DNA of 32,681 nucleotides from a virus, in IMG/VR virus record IMGVR_UViG_3300031758_000316, positions 1-32,681 of that record; one strand, given 5' to 3'. Below the pieces are notes generated by a model. The model was not told where the DNA came from and made no database searches. It worked only from the letters and a program-made list of their open reading frames with translations. Every line of letters starts with the position of its first letter. Within the stretch, counting starts at the first letter, position 1. Position numbers and translations under genes: made by a program. Positions 13,211 through 29,716 of this stretch are shown here, one piece after another.

Positions 13211-13212
13211 AG

Positions 13213-13225: not shown

Positions 13226-13254
13226 TTTTGGGATGCCCCTCGCGGAAGTAGAAA

Positions 13255-14667: not shown

Positions 14668-14673
14668 ATCTTT

Positions 14674-14703
14674 ATTTTATCTCTCATCTCTAAATAGTTT
14701 CTC
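14674..14703 (-). promoter_or_regulatory. Weak TGAAAC-class promoter before polymerase N-half
   Basis: GAGAAA (14698-14703), 18 bp, TAAAAT (14674-14679) on the minus strand. Spacing fits the class, but the first box is degenerate and the start codon follows by only 6 nt. Confidence 0.25.
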
Positions 14704-14704
14704 A

Positions 14705-15172
14705 TCAGTAGCCTCTTTTTTGGCGATCGATGTTCTCTTTGTTCTTGCTCATATACATGTTGTACATTTCTTGGGGTGTCATTCCTACTGATACGGCCAT
14801 GTTCATGAAAAAATGCAAGATGTCTATAATCTCGAACTTACATTCTAATTGATCATTCTCTGAAAGATCTGAGAACTTAATGTCTGAATAAGTTGAGTAA
14901 GCCTTCTTCCACCTTTTCCAGATAGCGCTTCCGTTACCGTCTTTAATGCCACCGAGAGCGTCTGTAGCTTCGTGAATCTCATCAAGGAGAGCGTGGTTGT
15001 TCATGTGCCAGAATCCCATAAGATCTCTAAGAGTCATGTTCTCAAAATCCCACCCGTAAATCTCTTTCTGAGTGTACGCCTGAGTGTTGAGGATGTCTCC
15101 GAGTGTGTCCTTAGAGGAACTGTGCAAATTTTCGATCTCTAATTGAGAACAGCTGTTGTCAATGTTTGCCAT
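14705..15172 (-). CDS. Dimeric all-alpha dUTPase (MazG-superfamily dUTP pyrophosphatase)
   Basis: A 155-residue helical protein with the paired metal-binding motifs of the all-alpha NTP pyrophosphatases. These are E65-I-H-E68 and E114-I-I-D117, followed by the C-terminal KNKENIDRQKRGY block typical of dimeric dUTPases (dUTPase_2 family). A WKRWKK segment lies between them. It hydrolyses dUTP to dUMP and pyrophosphate, preventing uracil incorporation and feeding dTMP synthesis, which fits its place upstream of polymerase and ribonucleotide reductase. It is first in its transcription unit, with a clear promoter at 15192-15221 and a terminator immediately before that. A dCTPase/dUTPase role like T4 gp56 is an alternative. 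Confidence 0.82.
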   Translation of the reverse strand: MANIDNSCSQLEIENLHSSSKDTLGDILNTQAYTQKEIYGWDFENMTLRDLMGFWHMNNHALLDEIHEATDALGGIKDGNGSAIWKRWKKAYSTYSDIKFSDLSENDQLECKFEIIDILHFFMNMAVSVGMTPQEMYNMYMSKNKENIDRQKRGY

Positions 15173-15191
15173 ATTTCTTTCTTTTGCTTAG

Positions 15192-15221
15192 ATTATAGTG
15201 CACGAAAGAAAAGTGTTTCAA
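15192..15221 (-). promoter_or_regulatory. Promoter for dUTPase, TGAAAC class
   Basis: TTGAAA (15216-15221), 18 bp, perfect TATAAT (15192-15197) on the minus strand, 20 nt before the dUTPase ATG. It is the clearest member of the class and starts 4 nt after the terminator stem. Confidence 0.72.
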
Positions 15222-15224
15222 AGA

Positions 15225-15252
15225 AAAAGAGGACTTTTTAAGGTCCTCTTTT
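15225..15252 (-). terminator. Intrinsic terminator upstream of dUTPase
   Basis: A perfect 10-bp stem, 15225-15234 with 15243-15252 (AAAAGAGGAC/GTCCTCTTTT), with an 8-nt loop. The T run on the minus strand is formed by the stem end and following bases. It ends the unit with the targeting-leader genes. Confidence 0.8.
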
Positions 15253-15340
15253 GTATTCACAATTCCAACACGTCTCAGGGATCTCTCCGTCCTAGCGCGA
15301 AAACCTTGCTGGTATCTCGACAAGCAGGTGGTGATTGAAA
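15253..15340 (-). other. Structured 3' untranslated region, no convincing gene
   Basis: 88 nt between the stop at 15341 and the terminator. It holds a hairpin with a 7-bp stem and one bulged A (15303-15310 with 15323-15329). A 63-codon frame across it is not convincing: it overlaps the preceding gene, has no family resemblance and runs through the terminator and promoter. The structure could protect mRNA ends or be a processed small RNA. Confidence 0.4.
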
Positions 15341-16111
15341 TCAACGCCAACCCTCAAGAGACTTTCGAAAAGAGATGAATTCCTCAACTGCATCTATCAC
15401 GCTTTTCGATCTGCTAGATTTTGCTAGATCAAGTAATTGTTCATGATCGAGCATTTCGAATTTCGAGCGTGAGGTACGAGGCGATAATTTATCAAGAGAA
15501 AAGTGAGTTTGCCCGAAGGGGTCTTTATCTAAAGGATACGCAATTGCATTTTTCATAGCGAAGTTTAAAGCTTGTTTAGCGTCTTTCTCATTCAAAAACC
15601 TACCAGGCATTGCATATTCTCTGTAATCTGAATTAGGATAATTCTCGTAAAGCGCTAATCGAAGCGAAGGTGCCTTAGAATTTGTACCTGCGAATTTGAA
15701 GTCAGCTTCAACAGAAAAATGTTTTATGAATGGCGCAAGTATGTTTTCTGCTTCGGCTAAAATGTCTGCAGGAACTGGAGAAGGTGTGTTGGCGATTCTC
15801 TTTTGTAAGTCTCTATAGTAATTTTCATCAACTCTTGCGCTATCAAGCCCTTCTTGAATTGAATCTGCATTAATCGTAAGCTCTTCTACATTAAACGCAT
15901 CGTCAATCGGCCCCCTAGAATAAAGTCTACTATTTCCTGTATTATATTCAAACGTTAATTTCTTCAAGAGATCAATATATTTTTGGGCAGCATTTTTGTT
16001 ATCGAAGAGAAAATTGCCAGCCTCATATACTTTCATTGTTCCCTTATTCTCAATTATACGTTCAGAAGAGAGAGAAACGATGAAGTCTTCGTAAAGTTTT
16101 ACGTATTTCAT
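15341..16111 (-). CDS. Candidate internal head protein with capsid-targeting-like leader
   Basis: A 256-residue protein of unknown function. It begins MKYVKLYEDFIVSL, a member of the leader family found in eight proteins of this window (MKHVKLFEQF type). A V-Y-E30 before A31 is the nearest match to the T4 prohead protease site (I/L/V-x-E before A/G); IQE before G at 85-88 is another. The remainder is a mixed alpha/beta, near-neutral soluble domain without motifs I know. No signal peptide or membrane segment is seen. A perfect TATAAATA lies 23 nt upstream of the start, as expected for a T4-type late gene. Packaging into the capsid is inferred. Confidence 0.75.
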   Translation of the reverse strand: MKYVKLYEDFIVSLSSERIIENKGTMKVYEAGNFLFDNKNAAQKYIDLLKKLTFEYNTGNSRLYSRGPIDDAFNVEELTINADSIQEGLDSARVDENYYRDLQKRIANTPSPVPADILAEAENILAPFIKHFSVEADFKFAGTNSKAPSLRLALYENYPNSDYREYAMPGRFLNEKDAKQALNFAMKNAIAYPLDKDPFGQTHFSLDKLSPRTSRSKFEMLDHEQLLDLAKSSRSKSVIDAVEEFISFRKSLEGWR

Positions 16112-16133
16112 ATTTTTTGTTTTGTTAGCATGT

Positions 16134-16141
16134 TATTTATA
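16134..16141 (-). promoter_or_regulatory. T4-type late promoter TATAAATA
   Basis: An exact TATAAATA on the minus strand, ending 22 nt before the ATG at 16111 and overlapping the end of the upstream gene. T4 late promoters have this octamer at -10 and no -35 box. Confidence 0.5.
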
Positions 16142-17018
16142 CGAGTTTCTTGAGATCTTTGTTAGCATCATCGATAGTCTTCGATTCTTTCTTGAAGACT
16201 CCGAGAAGCTTGTTGATCGCTCCCTTGATGGCATTCTTGATCTTGTCAAAGATTGAAGCTTCTGCTACAACCACTTTATCGATGGAGAAGCTGTGCTTTA
16301 CCTGAGTGACTTTTTTGCTTGCTTCGAGAGCCTCTTCAAGAACTCTACGAGTTGCCGCATTTACTTTACCGAGAGCGTTTTCAAAAGCAGTCTTGTAGGA
16401 TGCATCTTTTCTCTCTCCACCGAAGCGGGAGACCTTGATCACGAACCCTTCAGTCTCAGCCAACTTATCGCCGACTTCTTTCATTCCATCAAGCATCGGC
16501 TTGACTTCTCCTTCGAACTGCTTGAATGCGAGCTTCTTTTCTTCAAGCTCGGCTTCCATTCTCTTAATCTCATTCTGGAGATCGTAGAATTCAGCGATGC
16601 TTGCTTTAACTCCTGGATCATCGATGAAAGCTTCAAAGACGAATTCTTCAAACATCTTTACTATTTTCATATCTTTCTTTGTTTTTAATCTTTTGCGAGA
16701 AGCCGGTACGTCTCCGGATCCTGTTCTTTGAGTAGGAAATGACGTGAGATCTCCTGGATCTCCTGAAAAAGAGACAGCTCCCATTCCATTGACATTAGAT
16801 GGAGTAGCCATCGACTCGTCCTTCTTCTTTACTTTGTTAGGCAAGCCTTTGTGTTTTGTGGCTGCAAAATCTTTCAGCTGCTTCTGGGTCATTCCCTGAG
16901 AGAGATCTTCTATCTCGTCTCTGTACTGGGGATTGATATCAGATGGATCAAGATCACCCTTTTTAAGAGCATAAGCTTGAGCCATGAGCCGTTGTTGTGC
17001 TATTGAACGTGCTGGCAT
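16137..17018 (-). CDS. DUF3008-like domain fused to capsid-targeting-leader protein
   Basis: A 293-residue ORF of two unlike parts. Residues 1-65 (MPARSIAQQRLMAQAYALKK and the TKHKGLP motif) match the small DUF3008 phage/bacterial family, normally a separate protein of about 60-70 residues. Residues 70-116 look like linker. M117 then starts MKIVKMFEEFVFEAF, a capsid-targeting-type leader with V-F-E129 before A130. The last 160 residues are helical and coiled-coil-like, ending with a basic segment (AIKGAINKLLGVFKKE). The internal ATG (16668-16670) is preceded by an A-rich stretch like true gene starts here. One fused protein, or a nested second start giving a 177-residue internal protein, are both possible. 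Confidence 0.75.
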   Translation of the reverse strand: MPARSIAQQRLMAQAYALKKGDLDPSDINPQYRDEIEDLSQGMTQKQLKDFAATKHKGLPNKVKKKDESMATPSNVNGMGAVSFSGDPGDLTSFPTQRTGSGDVPASRKRLKTKKDMKIVKMFEEFVFEAFIDDPGVKASIAEFYDLQNEIKRMEAELEEKKLAFKQFEGEVKPMLDGMKEVGDKLAETEGFVIKVSRFGGERKDASYKTAFENALGKVNAATRRVLEEALEASKKVTQVKHSFSIDKVVVAEASIFDKIKNAIKGAINKLLGVFKKESKTIDDANKDLKKLV

Positions 17019-17030
17019 CTTTGCTTTTTG

Positions 17031-18170
17031 TTATCTTTTAACTTGAATTTCATCATCTAAAATGATGCTGTAATCTTCGACAAAAGCTTCAATGTCTTCT
17101 TTAGATCCTACGATAGAAAAACCTGATGAAGTTCTATCTTCAACATCTAAATTATAGTCTTTTTTAATTTCTTTATCAGATCCTCCCGGTTTTCTTCTAT
17201 CGTCTATGTATGCAATATATTTTTCATCGTTCTTTTCACGAAGAGGACCAGAACCGCCTGCGCCTAGTGCAAGTTCAGTGTTCTTCTTTAACCATGCTAG
17301 AGCTTTGCCAGCTGAATACTTGAGCATCTTCTTGAAAGTAGTGGCCACGTCTTCAATGTTCCCACCTGGCTTAGCCTGGTAGCCGTAGACTTTACCGTTG
17401 ATGCTCACATAGAAAAAGTCTTTAGTGAGATCGAGTGGATCGACGATGAGGTTTTCTTCTAAGCCGAATTCTTCGTAAATTTCAAGAACTTCGGATTCGT
17501 TGAGGGCGCTCATGATCACATGGCCGCTCTTAGTCAAAGAATAGTATTTTATACCGTCCTCTTCTTCAACTTTGAAAAAGTGAGAGTTACGGCTGATCCA
17601 CTTCGTAGGAGCTCCAGCCTTAGAGACTGCATCCATGAAATCCTGTTCTGCGACTCTGCCGTTTCTTAAGATTTCGAGAACCTTATTACGAACTGGAGCG
17701 TTAGCATAAACGTGGTTGAGGGCGATGCGGCCTTCGTGGAGATTTTCATTTTCTCCGTCTTGAGCCATGTGGGCAGCTTCATCGTATAGAGAAGTTGGTA
17801 GATCATATCCAGCTTTCTTGGCAGCCGCATGAGCTTTATTATAATCGTTCGGTAATGCGCCGCCGAAAAAATCTAACACCGAGAAGGCGTCTGGAAATTT
17901 CTTGGCTTCATTGATGAACTGTTCGAAGAGTTTTAAGTGCTTCATTATGCTATGTGTTTTTAGATTCATTGGTGAATTGCTCTCGCCTACGAAGAAGTCT
18001 GCTTCTTTACCGTTGAGAGTCTTCCCGTCTTCCCAGGTGAGACCGATCATGTGGCCGTTAGCTGCTTTGATCATGTAATCGCCTTTCGCCTTGACTACTT
18101 GGTAACCTTTGTTGCTCCAGTAGACCTTTTTGCCAGCGTCTACAGCTGCTTTTATTTCCTGAGCGTTCAT
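17031..18170 (-). CDS. Small phage domain fused to capsid-targeting-leader protein
   Basis: A 379-residue ORF. Residues 1-63 (MNAQEIKAAVDAGKKVYW, IGLTWEDGKTLNGKEADFF) resemble a small stand-alone phage protein seen in many genomes, of unknown function. M76 then starts MKHLKLFEQFINEAKKF, a textbook member of the leader family with I-N-E88 before A89, the T4 gp21-type site. The rest is soluble and partly helical with no motif I know. The internal ATG (17943-17945) follows an A-rich stretch (ATCTAAAAACACATAGCATA). The ORF overlaps the upstream ligase-like gene by 4 nt (ATGA). As with its neighbour at 16137-17018, either a true fusion or internal initiation is possible. Confidence 0.78.
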   Translation of the reverse strand: MNAQEIKAAVDAGKKVYWSNKGYQVVKAKGDYMIKAANGHMIGLTWEDGKTLNGKEADFFVGESNSPMNLKTHSIMKHLKLFEQFINEAKKFPDAFSVLDFFGGALPNDYNKAHAAAKKAGYDLPTSLYDEAAHMAQDGENENLHEGRIALNHVYANAPVRNKVLEILRNGRVAEQDFMDAVSKAGAPTKWISRNSHFFKVEEEDGIKYYSLTKSGHVIMSALNESEVLEIYEEFGLEENLIVDPLDLTKDFFYVSINGKVYGYQAKPGGNIEDVATTFKKMLKYSAGKALAWLKKNTELALGAGGSGPLREKNDEKYIAYIDDRRKPGGSDKEIKKDYNLDVEDRTSSGFSIVGSKEDIEAFVEDYSIILDDEIQVKR

Positions 18171-19456
18171 TTAAGCTCTATTTTTATTTCTTCTGATATG
18201 AGAGACTTATCGACTTCTTCGATGAAAATGCCTTCCATGACACGCTTATCGTTCAGATAGTCTCCGAAAGTCTTAAACCCTGAAGCTTCTTTTTGATGAG
18301 TGATCTCCTTGATCTTATTTATCAACTTGTTAAGGTCTTGGATGACCAGCGGTGTGAGAACATCGTTAGATCTCTCGGGGTCTCTCTTCTTCCTAAGACA
18401 GTTGAGGAAGATCTGGAAAATCTTTTCGTTGTTACCAGATTTTTCGATGATCTCTCGAGTCTTTTCGTTTGGAATCATCTCTACGTTCAGAGAATGTTCA
18501 GCATTCTTGGCAAAATCCCGAGTCTCGAAATTCAAACCTTGTAGGTCTGATTCTCTCTTCTCCATGTAATCGTTGTAGATGGAGCAGACGAGAGTGAGAT
18601 ACTTTTCGTCTGGAAATTCTCCTAGAGCCATTTCAGACTTGATGCCGTGAGTCTCTAAAAACTCTAACAAGTCTAAGAGGAGTATCGATACTGAATCGGT
18701 GGATCTACGTTTGCTCGCCTCTTTTTTGTAGAGAGACTTCATGTAGGGGTCGACTATCTTGGCAGTGACTATTGATTCTCCACCAGGCTTTACGAACTTG
18801 AAGATGAGAGAATCGAAGACTGTCTCATCATCACCGGCCAGAAGAGGACGATATGTGTAATAGCCTTTGGGATCTAATATGCTGAAGAGATATCTGAAAA
18901 AAGAATCGGTACCGATTATTTCCTCCAGCTCGTCTTTAGGAACCGCTAGAAATTCAAGGATCTTTTTCTTTCTTTCATCGTCTAATTTTCCAGCGAAGAG
19001 CGGAGGATTCTCAGAGACTCCTAAGCGATGAGCCCAGTCAGAGAGTACTCGTGGATCTTCCACTGTCTTTAGAGTTCTCGTATTTTGAGGATTCTTGATC
19101 ATGATCCTGCTGAGGATCAAACCTGATGGAGGAACTTTGCCATAGATGGAAGTCTCACCAGGAAAATAGTCGAAGCCGAAGAGCCAGTCTTCAGGCATTT
19201 TGAGCTTCACGTCCATCGGAAGATCTTCGAAGTGTTTGATGCCTTTCTCGTAAAAGAGGGCAAGAGTACGATCGATGAGATTGATCTTTTCTTCACCTTT
19301 CTTAAAATAACACAGAGAAGAACCTTCTCTCATGACATAGAAGTCTGAGGCGTTGATCTTCTCAGAGACTATCACATAAGAATCGAAGAGGTCCTGTAGA
19401 AAAGTCTGGCCTCTTTCTCGGTAAAGCTTGTCGAGCTCTGGTATGTTCCCTATCAT
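18167..19456 (-). CDS. Nucleotidyltransferase/RNA-ligase-like protein
   Basis: A 429-residue protein. The segment V-S-E-K33-I-N-A-S-D-F resembles motif I of Rnl2-type RNA ligases (EKIHGTNF in T4 Rnl2), where the Lys is the AMP-accepting residue. Here the G is A and the N is D. Possible motif III (WLFGFDYFP) and motifs IV-V (GGESIVTAKIVDPYMKSLY) follow in the right order. The C-terminal 180 residues are helical and unlike the Rnl2 C-domain. If active it would seal or cap RNA or DNA ends. The changes in motif I and the unusual C-terminus mean a non-ligase nucleotidyltransferase or an inactive relative is also possible. It is coupled to the glycosylase upstream (5-nt gap) and the fused leader protein downstream. 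Confidence 0.45.
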   Translation of the reverse strand: MIGNIPELDKLYRERGQTFLQDLFDSYVIVSEKINASDFYVMREGSSLCYFKKGEEKINLIDRTLALFYEKGIKHFEDLPMDVKLKMPEDWLFGFDYFPGETSIYGKVPPSGLILSRIMIKNPQNTRTLKTVEDPRVLSDWAHRLGVSENPPLFAGKLDDERKKKILEFLAVPKDELEEIIGTDSFFRYLFSILDPKGYYTYRPLLAGDDETVFDSLIFKFVKPGGESIVTAKIVDPYMKSLYKKEASKRRSTDSVSILLLDLLEFLETHGIKSEMALGEFPDEKYLTLVCSIYNDYMEKRESDLQGLNFETRDFAKNAEHSLNVEMIPNEKTREIIEKSGNNEKIFQIFLNCLRKKRDPERSNDVLTPLVIQDLNKLINKIKEITHQKEASGFKTFGDYLNDKRVMEGIFIEEVDKSLISEEIKIELK

Positions 19457-19461
19457 ATCTT

Positions 19462-19842
19462 TTATTTATTCAAGCTCCTCAGATAGCCGATGAGTTCTTT
19501 GTCAGTAGGCTGGATCTCGTAATTGTTCTTCTGAAAGATCTCCCAAGAGTCTTGAGCGTATTGGCCGATGCCGTGGAGCTCTATGGGTTCTTTCCAATCT
19601 TTCTCTGTCCATTCTCGACTGAATTTAATAAGAGTACGAGCTCTCCTGTTATAGAGCCCTAGAGGTTTTATTACTCTAGCGATCTCTTCTGGATCGGCTG
19701 AAGCCATTTCTATGGGATCAGGCCAGAAAGAAAAGAGATCTTCTCTTACGCTGTCGACCTGGGTTCTCGTCGTCTGGTTCAAAAGGATACATCCTACTAG
19801 CATTTTCCACGGATCGTGCAGATATATCTCCTGAAGCATCAT
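19462..19842 (-). CDS. MBD4-like HhH-GPD DNA glycosylase
   Basis: A 126-residue protein from the ATG at 19840-19842 (a TTG two codons earlier is the longest frame). It closely follows the catalytic domain of vertebrate MBD4: DPWKMLVGCILLNQT (10-24), KPLGLYNRRARTLIKFS (59-75), and PIELHGIGQYAQDSWEIF (86-103). The last block contains the helix-hairpin-helix and the catalytic aspartate D98. MBD4-type enzymes remove T or U, and deaminated or oxidised 5-methyl/hydroxymethylcytosine products, opposite G. In a phage this suggests repair of deamination or handling of modified bases; that is inference. It is shorter than Nth/MutY enzymes and has no Fe-S cluster cysteines. It lies directly downstream of the 2-oxoglutarate dioxygenase gene, transcribed in the same direction. 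Confidence 0.82.
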   Translation of the reverse strand: MMLQEIYLHDPWKMLVGCILLNQTTRTQVDSVREDLFSFWPDPIEMASADPEEIARVIKPLGLYNRRARTLIKFSREWTEKDWKEPIELHGIGQYAQDSWEIFQKNNYEIQPTDKELIGYLRSLNK

Positions 19843-19881
19843 AGACAAATCTAGTAAAAAAGATCCACTTTAGAAACTGTT

Positions 19882-20592
19882 TTAGCTGAACCAGCCAGTG
19901 AATGAAAGCCTTTTAGCGTAAGAAGGTGCATTCACATGAGAGACGAAGTGATCAGTGCCCGCAGATGTTGAGAGATCGAAAAGTATCAGAGAATTGTATC
20001 GAGGAGAGATGACTTTTTCTACACCGTTAGGATCTCCCTGCTTTAGAAAATGAAGCATTCCTCCCCATTCCGGACGCCAGCCTCGAGAAATGTTATAGAC
20101 AAAGCCCATCTGGCCGTTAGGACCATCGCTGTGAGTCGAAAGGAAGTCTCCGATGCTATACCAAGAAGCGAAAAGCTCGTTGCTGCTGGAGACTGGAATG
20201 TCAGTGATCTGAGTAATGAATTGGTGGACTTCCGAAGTAGCTAAGTAGCTCCTAAGCTCACACTCTACACAGTTACAGCCTTCAACGTGATCGTTGAGAG
20301 TTCTTCGAAAAATGTAAGAGAATTGAGAATTTGCAAAAGCCTTACGAGCTGCAGATTCTTTCTCAGCAATGAGATCAGCGTTGTCTTCGGAATAGTAGCA
20401 GTTATGCATTTTATTCTCTCCGTCAGGAGAGGGTCGAGTGCTCACTGACCACCACCATTGGGGCATTCCCTCGTTGAAGTGGTTGAAGATTCTATCAGCT
20501 TGTTCAGGTACGAGAAAATTATCGATGATGACAGAACCGTCTCTTAGAAATTCGTATTTGAGTTTTCTCTTGTTAAGATCCTTGTTTAGCAT
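19882..20592 (-). CDS. 2-oxoglutarate/Fe(II)-dependent dioxygenase (prolyl-hydroxylase-like)
   Basis: A 236-residue protein with the double-stranded beta-helix signature. H154-S-D156 and H219 are the iron ligands, and R228 is the 2-oxoglutarate-binding residue (KRLSFTGWF). The spacing and the GGMLHFL segment fit the prolyl-4-hydroxylase-like group often found in T4-like marine phages. An unusual cysteine cluster, C106-N-C108-V-E-C111, lies before the core and may bind a metal. Substrate is unknown: protein prolines, or a nucleic-acid base given the adjacent glycosylase. The start lies 3 nt after a T run of the upstream terminator, while a promoter sits within that hairpin (20623-20653). Expression from the promoter alone would lack the hairpin. 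Confidence 0.85.
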   Translation of the reverse strand: MLNKDLNKRKLKYEFLRDGSVIIDNFLVPEQADRIFNHFNEGMPQWWWSVSTRPSPDGENKMHNCYYSEDNADLIAEKESAARKAFANSQFSYIFRRTLNDHVEGCNCVECELRSYLATSEVHQFITQITDIPVSSSNELFASWYSIGDFLSTHSDGPNGQMGFVYNISRGWRPEWGGMLHFLKQGDPNGVEKVISPRYNSLILFDLSTSAGTDHFVSHVNAPSYAKRLSFTGWFS

Positions 20593-20594
20593 AT

Positions 20595-20625
20595 AAAAAA
20601 GGGAGAAGCTTTAGCCCCTCCCTTT
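20595..20625 (-). terminator. Intrinsic terminator after targeting-leader gene pair
   Basis: An 8-bp stem, 20598-20605 with 20618-20625 (AAAGGGAG/CTCCCTTT), with a 12-nt loop and six T on the minus strand (20595-20600). It follows the stop at 20656 and abuts the dioxygenase start, so it may also hide that start codon in readthrough mRNA. Confidence 0.75.
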
Positions 20626-20653
20626 ATAGATTTATGTAAATTAAAAGTTTCAA
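20623..20653 (-). promoter_or_regulatory. Promoter for dioxygenase/glycosylase, TGAAAC class
   Basis: TTGAAA (20648-20653), 19 bp, TATAAA (20623-20628) on the minus strand. The -10 box overlaps one arm of the terminator, so a transcript from here would begin inside the hairpin and escape it. Confidence 0.5.
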
Positions 20654-20655
20654 CT

Positions 20656-21318
20656 CTATCGATCGAGAGTATTACTTGAATTGAGAAAATTCATTAGAAT
20701 AAAATCTCTATCAAGAATAGGCGGAACAACAGCAGTTTTTAAAAATCCTGGATCAATTCGACCCTCAATCATGCCTGCCCAACTCGATGCTGTGCGCCAT
20801 CTCTGTTCATTTCTCTTTCTCGGCGCAAGATAATAGTAGGTAGGTTTGATCCACGCCATGAAAAGTTTCACAGGATCTTTTTGATCAAAATCCATGAATG
20901 CTTCAGAATATGATGGAAAAAACTCTCCTTTAGGATCTACCTCAAATTCTACTGTAAATTTTGCATCATCCGGAAATTTTACTGCTTTGAGAACTTTTTC
21001 AAATTCTTGGTAAGCTTTTTTAGAATCAGCATTAAAGGCTTTTACTGCATTTTCAAGATCTTTTTCGATCTTTTTCTTGTCGATTGAAAGGGTCGGATCA
21101 ACTATCAAAGCTTTTCGAAGAGAAGTTATGTTACGGAACTTTTCGATGATCTCTAATCTCCGATTCCTAAGACTTGTTAAATCTATGCGAAAATTAGGCA
21201 CTTCTACACCCGCTGCCTCCAAATCATAAGAGCCAAAACGATCTCCGGTAGGATTTACTTTCATAGCCTCATTAATTCTAAGGTCTATGAACTGTTCGAA
21301 TAATTTTACGTGCTTCAC
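20656..21318 (-). CDS. Candidate internal head protein with capsid-targeting-like leader
   Basis: A 220-residue protein of unknown function. It begins MKHVKLFEQFIDLRINEAMK: the leader consensus, then I-N-E17 before A18, matching the T4 gp21 protease site. The predicted mature protein (about 203 residues) is basic, with a helical first half (residues 45-110) and a beta-containing second half with several aromatics (FFPSYSEAF, PTYYYLAPRKR). There is no signal peptide or membrane segment. It follows the acidic leader protein by 20 nt in a two-gene unit that starts at the late-type element 22253-22265 and ends at the terminator 20595-20625. Packaging is inferred from the leader only. Confidence 0.78.
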   Translation of the reverse strand: MKHVKLFEQFIDLRINEAMKVNPTGDRFGSYDLEAAGVEVPNFRIDLTSLRNRRLEIIEKFRNITSLRKALIVDPTLSIDKKKIEKDLENAVKAFNADSKKAYQEFEKVLKAVKFPDDAKFTVEFEVDPKGEFFPSYSEAFMDFDQKDPVKLFMAWIKPTYYYLAPRKRNEQRWRTASSWAGMIEGRIDPGFLKTAVVPPILDRDFILMNFLNSSNTLDR

Positions 21319-21338
21319 TGTTCTGATTTTATTTTAGT

Positions 21339-22226
21339 TTAGTATGAGCGAGGTAGCCCTAATTCATCTGTCATTTCTTGCCATCTAAATTCGTCTATAA
21401 CTTCCTTTGCTTTCATACCATTCATTTCTCCCCATTCTGATATGTAATCAAAAAGTGCTTCAGGGGTAAATTCATCTTCGTCAAATTTACGATTGTCTTG
21501 GTAATCGTCGATGATTTCTCTAGACATGTCTTCTGCAAAATCTTTTAATTTCTTAATGTCAGATGAAGAATAATATCCCTCATTAACGTTGCCTTCATTA
21601 ACAGACATCTTCTTCACAAAAGAATCGAAGTCCATAACCGCTTTCTCAGGCTTACCGTCTTCTACTTTCTTTTTCTCAATTTCCTTAGCAGTGTCCTCAT
21701 CCGGTACAAGTTCTGCAGCTTTACCAGCTTCTGGATCTTCTTTAGCATCTGCAGCAGGAGTTACTTCTTCCGGTTGTTTTTCTACGTCACCTTCAGCTTT
21801 TTCAGGTTCGCCTTGTTTTACTTTTTCTTTCTCGATGTCTTCGGCTTCGTCTTCTTCGATTTCTTCAGCGCCTTTTTCTTTTTCTTTGCTTTCGTTAGAA
21901 GCGACATCGTCGATGATTTCCTCTTCTTCTTTCTCCTCTTCGGCTTCGCCTTCCTCTTCTTTTACTGGAGCATCTCCGCCTTCTTTGTCAACGAGCTCTT
22001 CGCCTTTAGCAGTCTGGCCTTCGCCTTTCTTATAGAAGTCTCCGATCTCATTGAAGAACTCTTTCTTCTTATCGTCATCGAGTTCACCTGGAGAACTCAC
22101 TCCGTATTTTTTAAGGAGTGACATAAAAACTTCGCCGTATTCTTTTTGAAGATCAGCTTCTTTGATCGCTTGTGTAGACTCAGCTTTCTTAGTTTGAAAG
22201 TCTGTAAATTTTTGAATTGGTTGCAT
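21339..22226 (-). CDS. Highly acidic protein with capsid-targeting-like leader (scaffold/core-like)
   Basis: A 295-residue protein in three parts. Residues 1-23 are a leader (MQPIQKFTDF) ending I-K-E23 before A24. Residues 65-197 are an extremely Glu-rich, low-complexity region with a 14-residue repeat (131-144 and 183-196, IEKxKVxxGxPEKA). The C-terminal 80 residues are folded-looking. At the junction, M198-DFDSFVKKMSVNEG resembles a second leader, with V-N-E211 before G212 and again V-N-E216 before G217. Cutting at these sites would release the acidic middle, as happens to T4 prohead core proteins (gp22, gp67). Function as a core/scaffold or packaged acidic protein is inferred. The antisense Ser-rich frame here is a composition artefact. 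Confidence 0.75.
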   Translation of the reverse strand: MQPIQKFTDFQTKKAESTQAIKEADLQKEYGEVFMSLLKKYGVSSPGELDDDKKKEFFNEIGDFYKKGEGQTAKGEELVDKEGGDAPVKEEEGEAEEEKEEEEIIDDVASNESKEKEKGAEEIEEDEAEDIEKEKVKQGEPEKAEGDVEKQPEEVTPAADAKEDPEAGKAAELVPDEDTAKEIEKKKVEDGKPEKAVMDFDSFVKKMSVNEGNVNEGYYSSSDIKKLKDFAEDMSREIIDDYQDNRKFDEDEFTPEALFDYISEWGEMNGMKAKEVIDEFRWQEMTDELGLPRSY

Positions 22227-22252
22227 GTCTGTTTTTTTAATTTTTGGACAAT

Positions 22253-22265
22253 TTGTTCTATATAT
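22253..22265 (-). promoter_or_regulatory. Late-type promoter element ATATATAGAACAA
   Basis: A 13-bp element on the minus strand, identical to 13213-13225. It ends 26 nt before the ATG at 22226 and 3 nt after the uvsW stop. No TGAAAC box is present at 18 bp. Confidence 0.5.
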
Positions 22266-22267
22266 CT

Positions 22268-23776: not shown

Positions 23777-23789
23777 TGTTCTTTATTTT

Positions 23790-24233
23790 TTAGAAATCGT
23801 CCTCTGCGAGTTTTATTCTATTTCTAATTGCAAAGGCCGAGTTGTCTAGAGTTCTGATACATTCTCGATAGAAATCGAGGTGTGACTCTAACAGGGATAT
23901 TTGACGTTGGATAGCTGATAGATCAGATTTTACGAACCTGTCTTTCTCTCCTCCGTTCAACTTCAAATTTCCAGTTGTGCTATATTCGATGTACTTTTCT
24001 TTGTACTTGTTTTCGTAGATTGATTTCTTCTTATAGATGAGAGCTTGGATCTCAGTGATGTGATCGACCAACATGTGTCTGTAGGAGAGCATGTTGACTT
24101 GAGAATCTACCAGCTGATCCATCTGCTTTAGACCTTGGATCATCTCCAAGATCCTCTTGCTCCATTTTTCTCTGTCGCTAATTAGCTTGTCATCAAGCTC
24201 TTGTATTTTGTCTTCTATTACTTTTTCGCTCAT
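23790..24233 (-). CDS. uvsY: Recombination mediator UvsY
   Basis: A 147-residue, helical, charged protein (T4 UvsY is 137). The middle (YRHMLVDHITEIQALIYKKK), a basic loop (YIEYSTTGNLKLNGG), and the C-terminal helices (LDFYRECIRTLDNSAFAIRN) follow the T4 UvsY pattern. There, YSKWLNKH, the YYSGRG loop, LDFCSGALDAIKSRGFAIKH occur at equal spacing. UvsY loads UvsX onto gp32-covered ssDNA, and uvsX, gp32 and uvsW are all present in the window. It shares one base with the stop of the gene upstream (TGATG) and is followed by uvsW. The identification is by remembered sequence pattern plus context. Confidence 0.82.
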   Translation of the reverse strand: MSEKVIEDKIQELDDKLISDREKWSKRILEMIQGLKQMDQLVDSQVNMLSYRHMLVDHITEIQALIYKKKSIYENKYKEKYIEYSTTGNLKLNGGEKDRFVKSDLSAIQRQISLLESHLDFYRECIRTLDNSAFAIRNRIKLAEDDF

Positions 24234-24445
24234 CAGAAGATGTTATCGTTGTCTTTTTCTTTACGGTGAATTCTCACCACTTTCTTTTTTACTTTCTTCT
24301 TTTCTATCGGAGGAAGAGAGAAGCCTTTGCCTCCATAAGTAGAAGCAGCGGCAAATCTGAGAAGCATCTTATACTTCTTCTTGCTCTTTTCATCGTCTTC
24401 AAAAAATTTATCGAGTTCTTCCATCACTTCTCTTTCTTTATACAT
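24233..24445 (-). CDS. Small basic protein between primase and UvsY
   Basis: A 70-residue protein from the ATG at 24443-24445, which overlaps the primase stop as ATGTATAA. A GTG eight codons upstream is the longest frame, but the 8-nt overlap repeats the pattern of other junctions here. The first 20 residues are an acidic helix (EEVMEELDKFFEDDEK is its flavour), followed by LLRFAAASTYGGKGFSLPP and a very basic tail (EKKKVKKKVVRIHRKEK). I do not recognise it. Position between primase and recombination mediator suggests a DNA-binding accessory factor of replication or recombination. Such small genes between replication genes are common in T4-like phages. Confidence 0.6.
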   Translation of the reverse strand: MYKEREVMEELDKFFEDDEKSKKKYKMLLRFAAASTYGGKGFSLPPIEKKKVKKKVVRIHRKEKDNDNIF

Positions 24446-25499
24446 AGATGATGTCTCTAGGGTTATCACTAAAATATAAGTTTATAGTGTTCAAAGCCTG
24501 TTTGTTTTCTTCTCGGTAGCAGACCTTGACCAAGTCGTTGAGATCTTTGATCCTATGACGAGTCAACCTGTTATCTGATATGTATTTCTGCCAGAGAAAG
24601 CCTTTCTTGCCCATCTTCATCTTTTCAATGATCTTTCTTTTACCTTCTCTATCATTATCAAAGAAGTATCTTACTGAATCTAGCTCATCAAAATCTTCGA
24701 CGTTCTTTCTGACTCCTGTGAGGCCGATTGAGTTCTTCATGAACATTGCATCTATGGGCCCTTCAAAGACGGTAAAGTCTCTTGCAAAATCGAGATGGAG
24801 GATACCAAACAACATTGAGATCTTGTTCAGAGCATCCATTTTTTCAGGAGGAATCTCTAGAGTCTTGTTCAGCCTCTTATACATCCTCTCCAGATTGTAG
24901 CTGAGATATTTAGCATCGCCATCACCGAGGTTCCTTACTTGGTAGCCGATGACTCTATCACCGGAAGTATCAGGATTAAAGACGTAGAGGAGGTTCTTTC
25001 TCGGATCAAAGCCGAATCGATCGAGGTTGCCGGTAAGAAGTCGGCTTCTGAGATATGCGTATGCTCTGCGAGTTCTATCATTAATGGGATAGACGTTCAG
25101 AGATCGATATAGTTCATCTCGAGGTATTGATAAGTTATCAATCTCTAGAAAGAGGTCAAACTTGATCATGTTGGAGACCTCGTATTTCTTCTTCTCTCTT
25201 ACGAGTTTTACGAGCTCAATCCTCTGTTCTCCTTCGAAGCCTTCCTCAAAGTCTCTAAGAAAAGAATCTACGTCTCTGTGTTTTCCACAGTTAAAACAGT
25301 GAAAAGAGAGGCTCTCCCAATAGAGATTGCCCCTCTTTTTTCTTTCATCATCGACTGAATCTCCGCAATATGGACATGCGAAGTTCAGTCTTTGATGCAT
25401 CTGTTTCAAGCGAGACCTGTCGGAAAGTCTGTGAGTTCTGAGAAGAATCGCTTGGACTCTATCGGCAATCTCTGACTTTAAGTTGTCAGTTAATTGCAT
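24438..25499 (-). CDS. 61: DNA primase gp61
   Basis: A 353-residue DnaG-type primase. The zinc-binding domain has C42-P-Y-C45 and C68-F-N-C71. The TOPRIM domain has the catalytic glutamate E246 with D250 (FEGPIDAMF) and the D281-N-D283 pair (YFFDND). The length equals T4 gp61 (342). It makes the RNA primers for lagging-strand synthesis at the fork and is stimulated by gp41 (4553-5854). It lies 3 nt after gp32, in one unit with gp32, a small basic protein, UvsY and UvsW. No separate promoter is seen. Confidence 0.93.
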   Translation of the reverse strand: MQLTDNLKSEIADRVQAILLRTHRLSDRSRLKQMHQRLNFACPYCGDSVDDERKKRGNLYWESLSFHCFNCGKHRDVDSFLRDFEEGFEGEQRIELVKLVREKKKYEVSNMIKFDLFLEIDNLSIPRDELYRSLNVYPINDRTRRAYAYLRSRLLTGNLDRFGFDPRKNLLYVFNPDTSGDRVIGYQVRNLGDGDAKYLSYNLERMYKRLNKTLEIPPEKMDALNKISMLFGILHLDFARDFTVFEGPIDAMFMKNSIGLTGVRKNVEDFDELDSVRYFFDNDREGKRKIIEKMKMGKKGFLWQKYISDNRLTRHRIKDLNDLVKVCYREENKQALNTINLYFSDNPRDIIYV

Positions 25500-25502
25500 T
25501 GA

Positions 25503-26432
25503 TTAGAGATCTAAACCTTTTAAGAAATCATTGAGATCATCACCGTCATCCGAGCTCGTTTCTTCTTCGACCGGCTTTGGTTTAGCTGCTTCTTTTTTAG
25601 GAGCTGGCTCATTATCGAAGTTGAAATCATCGAGAGAAGAGTAACTCTCTTCTTTCTTGGAGACCACCTTACCGATGGCCGATCCAGGAGAGCGATAGTT
25701 GTCTAAGATTCTTTCGATAGATGAACGAGTTGAGTCATCCCAAGGTTTGAAATCGAAAGAATCTAATTCAGGAACTTCTTTAAGATATTCCATGATCTTC
25801 TTTCTATCATCTCCGGTGTTACCCATTGCACTGCCATCGATGGTGAGTGCTGTTCTTTTACCTTGGAATTTAGAAGCAGTGAAGCTATTGTAGCCTGCGC
25901 TCTTTGTAACTTTCAATTCAAAGTTTTTACCTTCGAAGAGATCGAATACTTGGCAAGGCTCATCAAATTGTGGATTGAGTTCCTCATCGATCTTTTGTTT
26001 GATCTGGTAGCCGTACTTAAATACTTTTACAGATCCTTCCATGTCTGGGTTCTGAGGATCTTTAATGATCTGAACCAGAGAATAGTAGATCTCTCTTCTC
26101 TTCAATTTTTCAGCCATTTTCTTATCCACTGCAGATTCACTATTTCTCAATTTGAAAAATAGATCTTGTACTGGACATTTTTCGCCGATTGTCGAAGGAG
26201 AATCATAGTAAGCACCTTTGCCTTCGCCGTCTTCCAGCCAATAGACAAATTTACGAACAATTGATTTTTGAGGGTTTTTAGGATTCGGTACGAATCTAAT
26301 CAAGGATGTGTAGACGCCGTCTTTGCCTTGATCTGCGGTGGGTTTGTAAAGATCTGAGCCTTTACTTTCTGTCCTCTGATAGCTATCGATATCATCGACG
26401 CTGAGGTTGAAGATGTCAAATTCCTTTGCCAT
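25503..26432 (-). CDS. 32: Single-stranded DNA-binding protein gp32
   Basis: A 309-residue protein (T4 gp32 is 301). The order is as in T4: a basic N-terminal segment, a core with alternating aromatic and basic residues (YSLVQIIKDPQNPDMEGSVK matches [20 protein letters not shown] in T4), and an acidic tail (SSDDGDDLNDFLKGLDL, the partner-binding C-terminus). In T4 a zinc ion is held by H64, C77, C87 and C90. Here only one cysteine remains in that region (C86 in EKCPVQ, aligning with CPVC), so zinc binding is apparently lost. It coats ssDNA and organises replication and recombination. The 5' leader has an unusual repeat (26426-26546) and a strong promoter (26559-26588). Confidence 0.9.
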   Translation of the reverse strand: MAKEFDIFNLSVDDIDSYQRTESKGSDLYKPTADQGKDGVYTSLIRFVPNPKNPQKSIVRKFVYWLEDGEGKGAYYDSPSTIGEKCPVQDLFFKLRNSESAVDKKMAEKLKRREIYYSLVQIIKDPQNPDMEGSVKVFKYGYQIKQKIDEELNPQFDEPCQVFDLFEGKNFELKVTKSAGYNSFTASKFQGKRTALTIDGSAMGNTGDDRKKIMEYLKEVPELDSFDFKPWDDSTRSSIERILDNYRSPGSAIGKVVSKKEESYSSLDDFNFDNEPAPKKEAAKPKPVEEETSSDDGDDLNDFLKGLDL

Positions 26433-26546
26433 TTTAATTGCCTTTTGTTTAAGTTATTGATTACGTAAGCCGCCAAAATGCCGTTCTCTGATTTAGATTG
26501 GATTTCCCGGGTTGCCGCTCTTTGCCAGTTGATTGCCATTTTAATT
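26426..26546 (-). repeat. Direct repeat of the gp32 start region in the leader
   Basis: A 14-bp direct repeat, AATTAAAATGGCAA on the minus strand, at 26426-26439 (the real gp32 start) and 26533-26546, 107 bp apart. The upstream copy opens a 79-codon frame (26300-26539) out of frame with gp32 and overlapping its first 44 codons. I see no family resemblance in it. It may be a decoy or leader peptide that regulates gp32 translation (T4 gp32 is autoregulated by binding its own leader), or a chance duplication. Confidence 0.6.
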
Positions 26547-26558
26547 ACTTACTTAATC

Positions 26559-26588
26559 TATATATTGAGAATCTGAGTCAAGTTTCAA
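26559..26588 (-). promoter_or_regulatory. Promoter for the gp32-primase-uvsY-uvsW unit
   Basis: TTGAAA (26583-26588), 18 bp, TATATA (26559-26564) on the minus strand. The second box is also part of the late-type ATATATAGA (26557-26565), so this site combines both classes. It may serve throughout infection. Confidence 0.6.
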
Positions 26589-26699
26589 CTTTTCTGATTT
26601 TTTTATCATGAAAAAAAAGTTTGATAAACGTGATCGTTTTTGAAACAAAGCTGCGCAGCACTATATAAAGGGTACTGGAGCCGTTGGTGAAAAAGACTC
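26589..26699. other. AT-rich intergenic region with dyads
   Basis: 111 bp between the gp32 promoter and the stop of the RuvC-like gene. It contains a 7-bp inverted repeat TTTATCA/TGATAAA (26602-26608, 26622-26628), the small hairpin AAACG-TGAT-CGTTT, the dyad GCTGCGCAGC, and TATATAG on the minus strand at about 26661. No ORF or good terminator was found. It could be a regulatory or origin-like site. Confidence 0.35.
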
Positions 26700-27332
26700 T
26701 TAGAGCGCAGAGCTGCTAAGAAGTCTAGAGATCCAGTAAGCATCTACAAGATCGTCTATCGGCTTCGGTATCTCTCCCTGAGCAAGATCTCGCCTCTCAG
26801 CACACCACTTCCAAAATTCAGAACCCGCTAGCAGCGGATCCTCCGAACGGTTCTCGACGAAAGCTGAGAACATTCCCTGCTTGTTCAAGTTCCCTTTCCC
26901 TGCTCGAGTCTTTACCTGTGAGGGCGTGTAGACAGTGACACTGTGACCCTCTAACCAAAGTCTGTTTCTGAGAACTGAGTTGAATGCGATGAGATCGATG
27001 AAAGAGTTCCCTTTAGATCCGTAGCTGTAGCCTTCAAGCCCGACCGGAGCTCCTTCTGGAATCTGAGACTCAATGAGGACTGCGAGAGAGTGGCCATCTT
27101 CAATCTTCTGAGCCTGATCGATAGAATAGTTATCGTGCTTCTTCCTCCGCTTGAATTTATGGACTGAGACTCCTGAGAGAGCTGAGATCTCGTGGTGAAC
27201 TAGGAAGTCTCTAGGGTTTCCCTTCTTGAAGTTCTTGCCCTCTTCATTGTAGAAAGCTACAAATTGTAAAGAGTCCGACTCTCTGAGACAGATAGCCGGA
27301 CTGTTAATTGAAAAATCTATGCCTATGTGCAA
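26700..27332 (-). CDS. RuvC-like Holliday-junction resolvase
   Basis: A 210-residue RNase-H-fold nuclease. The four acidic positions expected in RuvC-type resolvases are D6 (HIGIDFSIN), E100 (VGLEGYSYG), and the pair D193/D194 with D197 (PIDDLVDAYWI). T4 uses endonuclease VII (gp49) for this step, so a RuvC-type enzyme is a replacement. It would resolve recombination branches before packaging, working with UvsW. The frame starts with TTG at 27330-27332. The fold requires the GIDFS strand at the N-terminus and no ATG lies close by, so TTG (or the ATT just upstream) is the probable start. It could instead be a crossover-type nuclease of another RNase-H clade. Confidence 0.75.
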   Translation of the reverse strand: MHIGIDFSINSPAICLRESDSLQFVAFYNEEGKNFKKGNPRDFLVHHEISALSGVSVHKFKRRKKHDNYSIDQAQKIEDGHSLAVLIESQIPEGAPVGLEGYSYGSKGNSFIDLIAFNSVLRNRLWLEGHSVTVYTPSQVKTRAGKGNLNKQGMFSAFVENRSEDPLLAGSEFWKWCAERRDLAQGEIPKPIDDLVDAYWISRLLSSSAL

Positions 27333-27353
27333 AATATAGAGTGTTAAAGGTGA

Positions 27354-28481
27354 TTAAGATTCTTGTGCAATCATTGCGTGTGTAATGTTAACTGAGATCC
27401 ATCCTGCTTTATTGAAGAATTCTTTTGCGATCTTTTTGACCTTTTCAGCTTCTCCCATTGATATTGGATCTTCTCCTCTATCGTTCCAGTCTTTTACGGC
27501 TTCTTTGAAAGTGGCCTCAAAATCTTTTGACTTGATAGCAAATTCAGGATCGCTCTGTCCAGAAGTATCTGTGTTATAATCTGTCCAGTATTTGACGTCG
27601 ATAGCTTCGTTCTGCTGGAACGGGTGTTTTTCTATTTTTTGGAGATCTGCAACCACTCCGCTGTTGTCTTTGAGGATTTTGGCTATGATGTCAGCAATCT
27701 CCTCGTAGGTATCTCCGCCAATAGCGTCAGATTTTTTGTATGCTGGGTTTGTCGGCTTTCCTATTTCCAGAGTTACGCCTACAGATTTCTGAACAATGTG
27801 TAGTCCGATGTATGGATTAAGATCGGCCGAGAGCATGACATCATGCTCAGGGTTGAACTGAAGTCCGATTTTGTTCTTCATCAGAGATGAATTGAGGGCT
27901 GGAAGCAGCATCTTCATGTCAAAGCCTCTGAACGTATCCTTTTTTTGCCAAAATTTGCGAAGATTGAATTTTTGCGATAATTCAGCCAAGTTTGCTAAAG
28001 TTGAAAAAGGTGTTTTCTTGATAAAGTCGTAAGCTTCATTCATAGAAGCTGAAGCGAGAAGTGAAGCAATTGCTTCTACGAGATCTTCAGTTTTTTTCTT
28101 TACCGGGATGACTTCCATGTCAACAAGCTTGTTCAGGACTTTGTGAGCAAGAATTCTTCCGCCTTTGATAGAAACTACGCCTTCGTTGAGTTCAGCTTCG
28201 TTAAATGCATAATAGCCAATACCCGACGGAGAAATTATTTTTCCATCTTTGAATGCTTTTTCAACTTTATTTTTTAGCTCTTGCGCTTCTTTCTGTGATC
28301 CGGTTGTTAAATAACTCATAACAAGCTCATCTCCGATAAAATAACCGATCTCTAAATTATAGGTAAGATGATTCTTATTATTGATTTTAATATCCTTTAA
28401 CTTCAATGGCTCTGGAGCTCCACTGGATGCTTCATTAGATTTCGATGAAGTAAAGTCTTCGAATAATTGAATGTGTTTCAT
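27354..28481 (-). CDS. Candidate internal head protein with capsid-targeting-like leader
   Basis: A 375-residue protein of unknown function. It begins MKHIQLFEDFTSSKSNEASS. The first possible cut (S-N-E17 before A18) has a poor P3 residue, but L98-N-E100 before G101 is a full T4-type match and is followed by VVSIKGGRILAHKVLNKLVD. That segment resembles the mature start of the 70-residue protein at 29158-29370. The C-terminal half (about 185-375) is a mixed alpha/beta domain without recognised motifs. It follows the lipoprotein by 1 nt and ends 21 nt before the RuvC-like gene. Packaging is inferred from the leader; the real function is unknown. Confidence 0.75.
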   Translation of the reverse strand: MKHIQLFEDFTSSKSNEASSGAPEPLKLKDIKINNKNHLTYNLEIGYFIGDELVMSYLTTGSQKEAQELKNKVEKAFKDGKIISPSGIGYYAFNEAELNEGVVSIKGGRILAHKVLNKLVDMEVIPVKKKTEDLVEAIASLLASASMNEAYDFIKKTPFSTLANLAELSQKFNLRKFWQKKDTFRGFDMKMLLPALNSSLMKNKIGLQFNPEHDVMLSADLNPYIGLHIVQKSVGVTLEIGKPTNPAYKKSDAIGGDTYEEIADIIAKILKDNSGVVADLQKIEKHPFQQNEAIDVKYWTDYNTDTSGQSDPEFAIKSKDFEATFKEAVKDWNDRGEDPISMGEAEKVKKIAKEFFNKAGWISVNITHAMIAQES

Positions 28482-28482
28482 T

Positions 28483-29148
28483 TTATTTCTTCTTTGTTGC
28501 TCCTACTGGAATTGGTGTGCCTACTGGATAAGGAGATCCCTCCTTAGCGGCAGTTACTGATGTTTCTCCGTTCTTTACCGGAATTGCAATGCGTAAAGGT
28601 ACTGCATCTTCATTTAGAGGACCGTATACTTTAGCAAGAACAATGCCTGTCGAAGTTGTATCAAAAATGACACCTGGCATCGCAAACATGTTGCTTTCGC
28701 TCGTTTCAGGTTTGCTCATGTCAATGATGAAAGATCGATTTACTGGGTGCATCATTTCCCATTCTTTAGATTCAGGATTGAATTGAGGAATGAGAGTAGT
28801 TGAATCATAGTACCAGAAGAAAGACCAGACTGTCTTGTCTGTTCCATCAGGAGTCTGGAAGTTGTCTTCCACGTTGAAATCTCCCCATGTTCCACCACTG
28901 CCGTTCATTGCTAAGTTTGCAATAGAAGGGCCGTCAAGAACAGGACAGATGGCGCAGCCTTCTTGGAATTCTTTCCCTTGTACGATGATTGTTTTACCAG
29001 TCGGTACTGCTGCAGATGCTCCACAAAATGCAAATTTGCCTTCGTGAATTCTGAGTACGCTTTTTTCAGGAGCTTGTACCGTTGTAGATTCAGTGTTGCA
29101 GCTGGCCAGTAATAGAGCAGCTGCTAATGTAAATAGTATTTGCTTCAT
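28483..29148 (-). CDS. Phage-encoded lipoprotein
   Basis: A 221-residue protein with a clear type II signal peptide: MKQILFTLAAALLLASC, lipobox L14-A-S-C17. The mature chain would be acylated on C17 and anchored in the host envelope. It has two further cysteine sites, FCGAS (about 42) and C-A-I-C (about 67-70), and a beta-rich body without a family I recognise. Phage lipoproteins of this kind (for example T5 Llp) often block receptors or superinfection; that role is inferred. It is odd in being transcribed among candidate capsid proteins, downstream of the 70-residue leader protein (9-nt gap) and upstream of the 375-residue one. A virion role cannot be excluded. Confidence 0.8.
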   Translation of the reverse strand: MKQILFTLAAALLLASCNTESTTVQAPEKSVLRIHEGKFAFCGASAAVPTGKTIIVQGKEFQEGCAICPVLDGPSIANLAMNGSGGTWGDFNVEDNFQTPDGTDKTVWSFFWYYDSTTLIPQFNPESKEWEMMHPVNRSFIIDMSKPETSESNMFAMPGVIFDTTSTGIVLAKVYGPLNEDAVPLRIAIPVKNGETSVTAAKEGSPYPVGTPIPVGATKKK

Positions 29149-29157
29149 ATATGTGAT

Positions 29158-29370
29158 TTAGAATGTGCTGTCCATGATGATTTTCTGCACATCATCAATT
29201 AAGATATTTCTGACAAAAGGATTCAGATACTTCTTTTTGACGAGATCATCTACGATGACCATAGCGAGTACTTTTGCGCCAGACGGTTTGTCGCGACCTG
29301 CAATTTGAACAGAAGCTTCATCTAATTTAGGCTCATTAGAGAAGTCCTCGAGTGTTAAAATGTTTTTCAT
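29158..29370 (-). CDS. Small capsid-targeting-leader protein
   Basis: A 70-residue protein. The leader MKNILTLEDFSNEPKLDEAS has L16-D-E18 before A19, an exact fit to the (L/I)-x-E/A rule of T4 gp21. The predicted mature part is 52 residues: SVQIAGRDKPSGAKVLAMVI then two helices (VDDLVKKKY, RNILIDDVQKIIMDS). That mature start looks like the segment after the LNE site in the 375-residue neighbour (VVSIKGGRILAHKVLNKLVD), suggesting a shared small domain. It sits 4 nt after the 113-residue leader protein and 9 nt before the lipoprotein. T4 internal proteins IPI-IPIII are similarly small after cleavage. Confidence 0.7.
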   Translation of the reverse strand: MKNILTLEDFSNEPKLDEASVQIAGRDKPSGAKVLAMVIVDDLVKKKYLNPFVRNILIDDVQKIIMDSTF

Positions 29371-29374
29371 AAAA

Positions 29375-29716
29375 TTAAATTCTTTTTCCTAAGTGAAATC
29401 CAATGGCTGCTCCGACTAATCGGCTGGTAAAGAGATCGAATAAAAGACCCTTTTCAACTCCTAATGCGTTCGCCACAATTTTGCCGACTCCCTGCCCTAG
29501 AGCAAATCCAGTTAGTCCACCGAGAATAGAACCGATGAAACCCTCGTTAGTGAGCTCTCGTTCTAATTGTTCTAAAGTATAACCTTCATCTTGGGCCTTC
29601 TTAATGAAAGCAGCTACTGCCTCGTCTATCGCGTTCTGATCGACAGATTCGTTCATCACAGCTTCCAAATCTTGAAAGTCTTCTTTTTCTCCAATGAATT
29701 CTTTGAATGTCTGCAT
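29375..29716 (-). CDS. Small targeting-leader protein with glycine-zipper hydrophobic domain
   Basis: A 113-residue protein. It begins MQTFKEFIGEKED, the closest of all to the T4 internal-protein leader (MKTYQEFIAEA type). I30-D-E32 before A33 is a good protease site. The C-terminal part is glycine-rich and hydrophobic: GFIGSILGGLTGFALGQGVG followed by KIVANALG and a second hydrophobic segment (LVGAAIGFHLGKR). Glycine zippers of this type insert in membranes or form pores. A packaged protein that acts on the host inner membrane during DNA entry is a possible role, inferred only. It is preceded by a late-type element (29721-29729) directly after the stop of the tail-tube-like gene. Confidence 0.72.
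   Translation of the reverse strand: MQTFKEFIGEKEDFQDLEAVMNESVDQNAIDEAVAAFIKKAQDEGYTLEQLERELTNEGFIGSILGGLTGFALGQGVGKIVANALGVEKGLLFDLFTSRLVGAAIGFHLGKRI

Follow-up and report, generated by a model that had tools for sequence, protein, structure and literature searches.

Putative capsid-targeting leaders of the T4 internal-protein type on diverse proteins of a lineage of large T4-like phages

The internal proteins of phage T4 (IPI, IPII and IPIII) have been described as diverse defence proteins that have only a targeting sequence in common (PMC3012670). When the ten N-terminal residues of IPIII were mutated, residues 4 and 7 proved to matter most for targeting, and residues 8 and 10 for processing (reviewed in PMC9026906). 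The giant phages phiKZ and SPN3US package many ejection proteins, which a gp21-like protease of the S80 type cleaves behind a Glu (PMC5694885); most of these proteins carry long propeptides, no common short leader has been described there, and these phages belong to another lineage. Here, the complete 32,681-base IMG/VR record IMGVR_UViG_3300031758_000316 of a T4-like phage (hereafter the window) was analysed, in which eight genes, all on the minus strand, encode proteins with a similar short leader. These leaders are read as capsid-targeting sequences of the T4 internal-protein type, greatly expanded in a clade of large T4-like phages (probability about 0.87). The sequence features of the T4 system that could be tested were found. 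As in T4, a short N-terminal leader of the form aromatic-x-x-aromatic-aliphatic-x-Glu is followed by a predicted cut, the bodies behind it are unrelated and fast-changing, and a gp21-type protease is encoded. The system differs from that of T4 in its main leader, which exceeds the T4 leader by three residues (MKHIKLFEQFINE/A, where the slash marks the predicted cut), in the number of carriers, about 16 to 28 in the larger genomes as opposed to a handful in T4, and in its cassettes, internal leaders and enzyme cargo.

The first-pass annotation of the window had listed eight leaders. All eight exist, but they had been paired with the wrong genes except in the case of 27354 (genes are named by their first coordinate; the corrected pairing is given in Table 1). 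A cleavage-type site had also been claimed soon after most leaders, and indeed [ILV]xE/[AGS] was found within 40 residues in seven of the eight proteins, compared with 16.6% of 573 non-leader genes from four genomes. Two of the leaders are internal: MKHLKLFEQF-INE/A at residue 76 of the 17031 product (position 17945) and MKIVKMFEEF-VFE/A at about residue 117 of the 16137 product (position 16670), each with its site at leader residue 13. The 29375 product has a glycine-rich, zipper-like C-terminal half; its homologues are present in nearly all relatives, and several of them carry leaders of the MKTFxxY type.

Relatives were fetched at UvsW identities of about 93%, 79% and 62%. The closest record in the phage collection searched was LR756500.1, an uncultured phage of 462 kb (UvsW, 59%). 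A degenerate DNA pattern that covered residues 1–10 only (MKH-x-KLFE-x-F) was run over the viral contigs of IMG/VR and matched at least 119 stretches. Among the matches listed there were 125 distinct proteins with a length of 40 residues or more, in 81 unrelated body families. In 53 of these 81 families residues 11–13 were [ILVFM]xE (1000 shuffles: mean 2.0, maximum 7), and the next residue was most often Ala (18/53). Residues 11–13 lay outside the pattern used for the search. A leader profile at a score of at least 15 retained 77 start positions in eight genomes and none in shuffled controls. A wider leader pattern matched 23 of 24 records, partly picked by means of the leader, whereas the reversed pattern matched none. 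The MKH-type pattern was nearly absent from cellular genomes, occurring in only four contigs in 257 Gb, two of them from Bacteroidota bins. Short motifs are easily over-read, and [ILV]xE/[AGS] lies near the N-terminus in 17% of other genes; nevertheless, the shuffled, reversed-pattern and cellular-genome controls led us to reject chance likeness of short peptides, the probability of which we regard as negligible.

Outside the window, the leader was found genome-wide and clade-wide, which the first-pass annotation had missed, as it had the likeness of the leader to the scaffold repeat and the arrangement of the cargo in recombining cassettes. At a profile score of about 6 or more, some 28 leaders were counted in genome G021, 26 in LR756500 (variant MKYIKEYEEF), 24 in G020 and 16 in G027. 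The wider set, to which the three internal proteins of T4 belong, comprised 295 leader proteins, and these formed 163 clusters by body. In LR756500.1, runs of adjacent leader genes were observed at 11601–17016 and 313382–318055 (L044, L050), with MKYIKEYEEF or MKYILEYEEF and in some cases leucine-rich repeats. In G020 (L215–L227), about 17 leader proteins have the common body start KLSAKDIFIPRRLKERWDDLLLPYLNKGYTK, and several run on into leucine-rich-like repeats.

Such a set could have arisen from a single, recently duplicated gene family that diverged everywhere except at the N-terminus, as the many copies with a common body in G020 would suggest. The 163 body clusters speak against this, as does the leader DNA itself: 97 versions encode 10 peptides, and all 20 leaders compared in G021 differ in DNA. 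Given this synonymous variation in the leader DNA, it is the peptide that is kept. Gene duplication as the origin of the leaders was rejected on the unrelated bodies and the synonymous variation, and we hold it to be highly improbable.

The gp21-type protease invoked in the first-pass annotation was located in relatives. An S77 (T4 gp21) domain was found in 19 of the 24 leader-bearing records, in open frames of about 600–750 residues, including a relative at 93% UvsW identity, where it is part of the head cluster. The protease gene adjoins the portal and gp23 genes in the seven genomes examined, and the His of GEL[ND]HP and the Ser of SSR of T4 gp21 are kept in all seven aligned proteases. The domain (MEROPS S77), its conserved His and Ser and its place between portal and gp23 are thus as in T4, in which gp21 and the gp22 scaffold are separate genes; here a single protease-scaffold protein with a 14-residue repeat array is encoded. 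The remainder of this open reading frame (ORF) is scaffold-like, with tandem repeats at 14-residue spacing (e.g. YSEYLAEN) and a density of cleavage-like sites of 3.1–4.8 per 100 residues (background, 0.63). Leader genes lie between portal and protease in G021, G027 and G010, the place of gp67/gp68 in T4, and between protease and gp23 in G001 and G027. The first-pass reading of the leaders as T4 internal-protein-like is supported by the S77 protease of relatives, by L/I-x-E sites far in excess of chance and by this gp67/gp68 slot. Besides the fusion, a second, short S77 match (open frame of 132–135 residues) was observed in G021 (L203–L214), G022 and LR756500.1 (W01), which may be a diverged paralogue of the protease, of the kind described in SPN3US.

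The leader motif is also that of the scaffold repeat. In each of the seven genomes that cover it, the protease-scaffold protein had the most matches to [FYH]xx[FYH][ILV]xE (4–13 copies; at most two in other proteins). The other matches clustered at N-termini, with 27 in the first 20 residues in G021 (1.6 expected) and 26 in LR756500 (3.5 expected). In T4, for which 29 genes were checked, it is the N-termini of ipII and ipIII that carry the motif. The IPIII leader, read from its record, is MKTYQEFIAE followed by A, so that the critical T4 residues 4, 7, 8 and 10 are the four motif positions; they correspond to residues 7, 10, 11 and 13 of the main leader, and the 29375 product carries them at 4, 7, 8 and 10. 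From this likeness we infer that the leader may act by mimicking a scaffold repeat. Localization tags are known in jumbo phages, and the leader itself is short and resembles an amphipathic helix; it might direct its carriers elsewhere (to a phage replication compartment or the host membrane) or bind a host factor, the protease cutting being incidental. That the scaffold repeat has the same motif, that an xxE site directly follows the leader and that its residues match those for T4 capsid targeting make this other destination improbable.

Leader proteins appear to be built of cassettes. One body recurs behind differing N-terminal contexts, often with the junction at an xxE/[AGS] site. When both proteins compared have a leader, such sites occur at 36% of junctions (5% at control offsets); the values are 28% (11%) for one-leader pairs and 13% (7%) for pairs without a leader, redundancy having been lowered by clustering with some remaining. 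In the window, the 27354 product has cassettes after LNE/G (residue 100) and after QNE/A (residue 292; about 27357–27605). The latter, C-terminal cassette (NEA/IDVKYW) has its own leader in L004 (DES/IDIKYW, the cut being placed by eye) and closes a 1029-residue protein in L205 (TEA/FDANYW). An iterated profile search with it drifted to DUF3008 proteins, and the result was not interpreted. The 29158 body follows LDE/A, LNE/G or IDE/A in four proteins, three of them larger proteins of relatives. The C-terminal cassette of 21339 (about 21342–21578) follows VNE/G in the window, and in L081 and L140 it has its own MKHIKLFEQF leader and follows MKHIKLFEQFINE.

The order of parts in the 16137 product (DUF3008, GMG...GSGD module, lysine-rich stretch, leader) recurs in relatives. 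An internal translation start at its leader was disfavoured: L002 and L003 have no ATG there, and for this reason 16137 is likely to be a fused protein with an internal leader. The 17031 homologues in L002 and L003 begin at the leader; therefore, either the N-terminal domain of 17031 is a separate addition or its internal ATG is used. The GMG...GSGD module is common to DUF3008 proteins and the N-terminal arm of gp23 in G001, G007, G010, G020, G021, G027 and LR756500. In the DUF3008 proteins it is followed by the lysine-rich stretch and often by the leader.

Most leader-protein bodies belong to no known family. In the window, Pfam and PHROGs searches gave DUF3008 on 16137 and otherwise weak matches or families of unknown function; among the sequences compared, the 20656 body has no relatives and the 15341 body occurs only in this phage. 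In relatives, eight leader proteins belong to the 2H phosphoesterase family, with two HxT motifs. One of them passes the Pfam cut-off for Acb1 (31.3 bits, cut-off 27), and the sole sequence matches in the PDB are Acb1 entries, at weak scores (E about 0.02). The structure model has a predicted local distance difference test (pLDDT) score of 80.9, with low confidence for residues 1–18. Foldseek matched it to the Acb1-type structures 7t27 and 9q2g at probability 1.0, the template modelling score being only about 0.5; the Usb1 fold scored about equally, and LigT more weakly. This cargo of relatives, absent from the window, thus resembles the phosphodiesterase Acb1, which counters cyclic-oligonucleotide-based antiphage signalling (anti-CBASS), in its two HxT motifs and 2H fold, and differs from it in carrying a putative capsid leader. 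Four further leader proteins contain a GRFQPFHNGH nucleotidyltransferase (L063:7917–8522, L116:6396–6992, L146:633–1229 and L167:10936–11532). Their PDB matches are mainly phosphopantetheine adenylyltransferases; from the motif, our guess would be a nicotinamide mononucleotide adenylyltransferase (NMNAT), and the tagged enzyme could be related to defence based on nicotinamide adenine dinucleotide (NAD). Other leader proteins of relatives matched RimK, leucine-rich repeats and Zeta toxin/AAA kinases. PADLOC gave only weak matches on cargo set A1, which were not used. Some leader proteins of relatives resemble anti-defence enzymes, in line with the anti-defence cargo proposed in the first-pass annotation; the eight window proteins themselves give no direct support to such a role. 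Probably part of the cargo serves anti-defence or takeover and the rest is structural or DNA-bound.

The leader might instead be a docking tag for the prohead core, most carriers serving to assemble the head or fill the core and then being degraded or retained, and few being delivered effectors. This would fit the long many-site polyproteins of relatives and the leader proteins seen in their gp67/68 slot, as well as the module that DUF3008 proteins have in common with gp23; a delivered function is known for only some of the T4 internal proteins (PMC9026906). It is opposed by the 163 body clusters, with their strong turnover, and by the enzyme families without an obvious role in the head (Acb1-like 2H phosphoesterases, nucleotidyltransferases, RimK). 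We consider it unlikely, though it is the rival to which we give most weight.

Several observations weigh against capsid-targeting leaders of the T4 type. The 27354 product has no consensus site near its leader, only the non-consensus SNE/A, its LNE/G lying at residue 100. About one-third of the body families among the matches listed have no [ILVFM]xE at residues 11–13. No protease was found in the window record, and the second contig of the same phage (G004, 68.9 kb) stops short of the head cluster; no S77 match was obtained in 5 of the 24 leader-bearing records, two of which exceed 200 kb (G015 and G023). The search for an isolate turned up no cultured phage with the leader. Leader, sites, protease of relatives, common leader/repeat motif, cassette junctions and cargo diversity were all read from sequence; core binding, packaging, cleavage and injection would follow from them by analogy.

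Under the T4-type interpretation, leader proteins would bind a prohead core built from the gp21-type protease fused to a scaffold of 14-residue repeats of the YSEYLAEN type. The leader, being approximately one detached [FYH]xx[FYH][ILV]xE repeat unit, could co-assemble with the scaffold. The protease would then cut after [ILV]xE, by which leaders would be removed, the scaffold shredded and fused cassettes separated; the mature cargo would remain with the DNA and enter the next host. With somewhat better than even confidence, we propose that this amounts to a packaging code readable from sequence, in which the leader is a detached scaffold repeat, the cargo consists of exchangeable cassettes bounded by prohead-protease sites, and the virions of a large clade of uncultured T4-like phages are preloaded with different proteins, up to about 25 or more for one genome. 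Part of these would act in pre-emptive counter-defence, such as the Acb1-like phosphoesterase, the NMNAT-like nucleotidyltransferase and the leucine-rich-repeat binders.

Table 1. Leader genes and associated features of the window (numbers after sites are residues)
Feature	Position	Strand	Description
Leader protein 29375	29375..29716	–	MQTFKEF-IGE, 113 residues; first consensus site IDE/A 32
Leader protein 29158	29158..29370	–	MKNILTLEDF; site LDE/A 18
Leader protein 27354	27354..28481	–	MKHIQLFEDF, 375 residues; at least two cassettes
GATATATA box	22259..22266	–	Candidate late promoter upstream of 21339; kept upstream of the homologue in two relatives
Leader protein 21339	21339..22226	–	MQPIQKFTDF; site IKE/A 23; acidic middle
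Leader protein 20656	20656..21318	–	GTG start; MKHVKLFEQF; site INE/A 17
ORF 17031	17031..18170	–	379 residues; N-terminal domain (PHROG 35422), then internal leader
Predicted winged-helix domain of 17031 product	17496..17696	–	Structure model, pLDDT above 85 here
ORF 16137	16137..17018	–	293 residues; DUF3008, GMG...GSGD module, lysine-rich stretch, internal leader, coiled-coil C-terminal part
DUF3008 domain of 16137	16830..17012	–	E 5e-8, above cut-off
GMG...GSGD module of 16137	16710..16787	–	Present too in gp23 N-terminal arm of relatives
Leader protein 15341	15341..16111	–	MKYVKLYEDF; sites IIE/N, VYE/A 30

The structure model of the 17031 product is poor overall (pLDDT 59.8) and is usable in the winged-helix part only. 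Upstream GATATATA boxes hint at late expression of leader genes: the box precedes 18 of 114 leader genes and 86 of 1466 others, as well as the protease-scaffold gene and several leader genes in relatives, although one copy is expected by chance in the window. It also precedes what we take to be the sheath and tube genes of relatives.

The remaining minus-strand genes of the window include replication genes, presumably those of a gp47-like protein, gp41, UvsX, a split gp43, nrdA/nrdB, UvsW and gp32. When 22.7 kb of the window was compared with phage records by Megablast, no match was obtained. Two ORFs (13255–14667 and 7441–8589) together make up a split family B DNA polymerase; they join at about position 142–146 of Pfam DNA_pol_B; nrdB, nrdA, a small ORF and one further gene lie between the halves. 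A possible phage-encoded lipoprotein (28483–29148; LPAM_1, under the Pfam cut-off) lies between two leader genes.

No report of such a system in uncultured or jumbo phages was found in the open-access literature. The features that appear new are the extent to which the system has grown, the resemblance between leader and scaffold repeat, the joining of protease and scaffold in one protein, the arrangement in cassettes and the types of protein carried. The idea of T4 internal proteins becomes a genome-wide predictor, in which each leader-bearing gene is a candidate for virion cargo, and the leader gives a list of candidate early effectors in uncultured jumbo phages. Mimicry of the scaffold repeat would explain in concrete terms how so short a leader reaches the prohead core, and preloaded Acb1-like enzymes would allow action on immune signals ahead of any phage gene expression.

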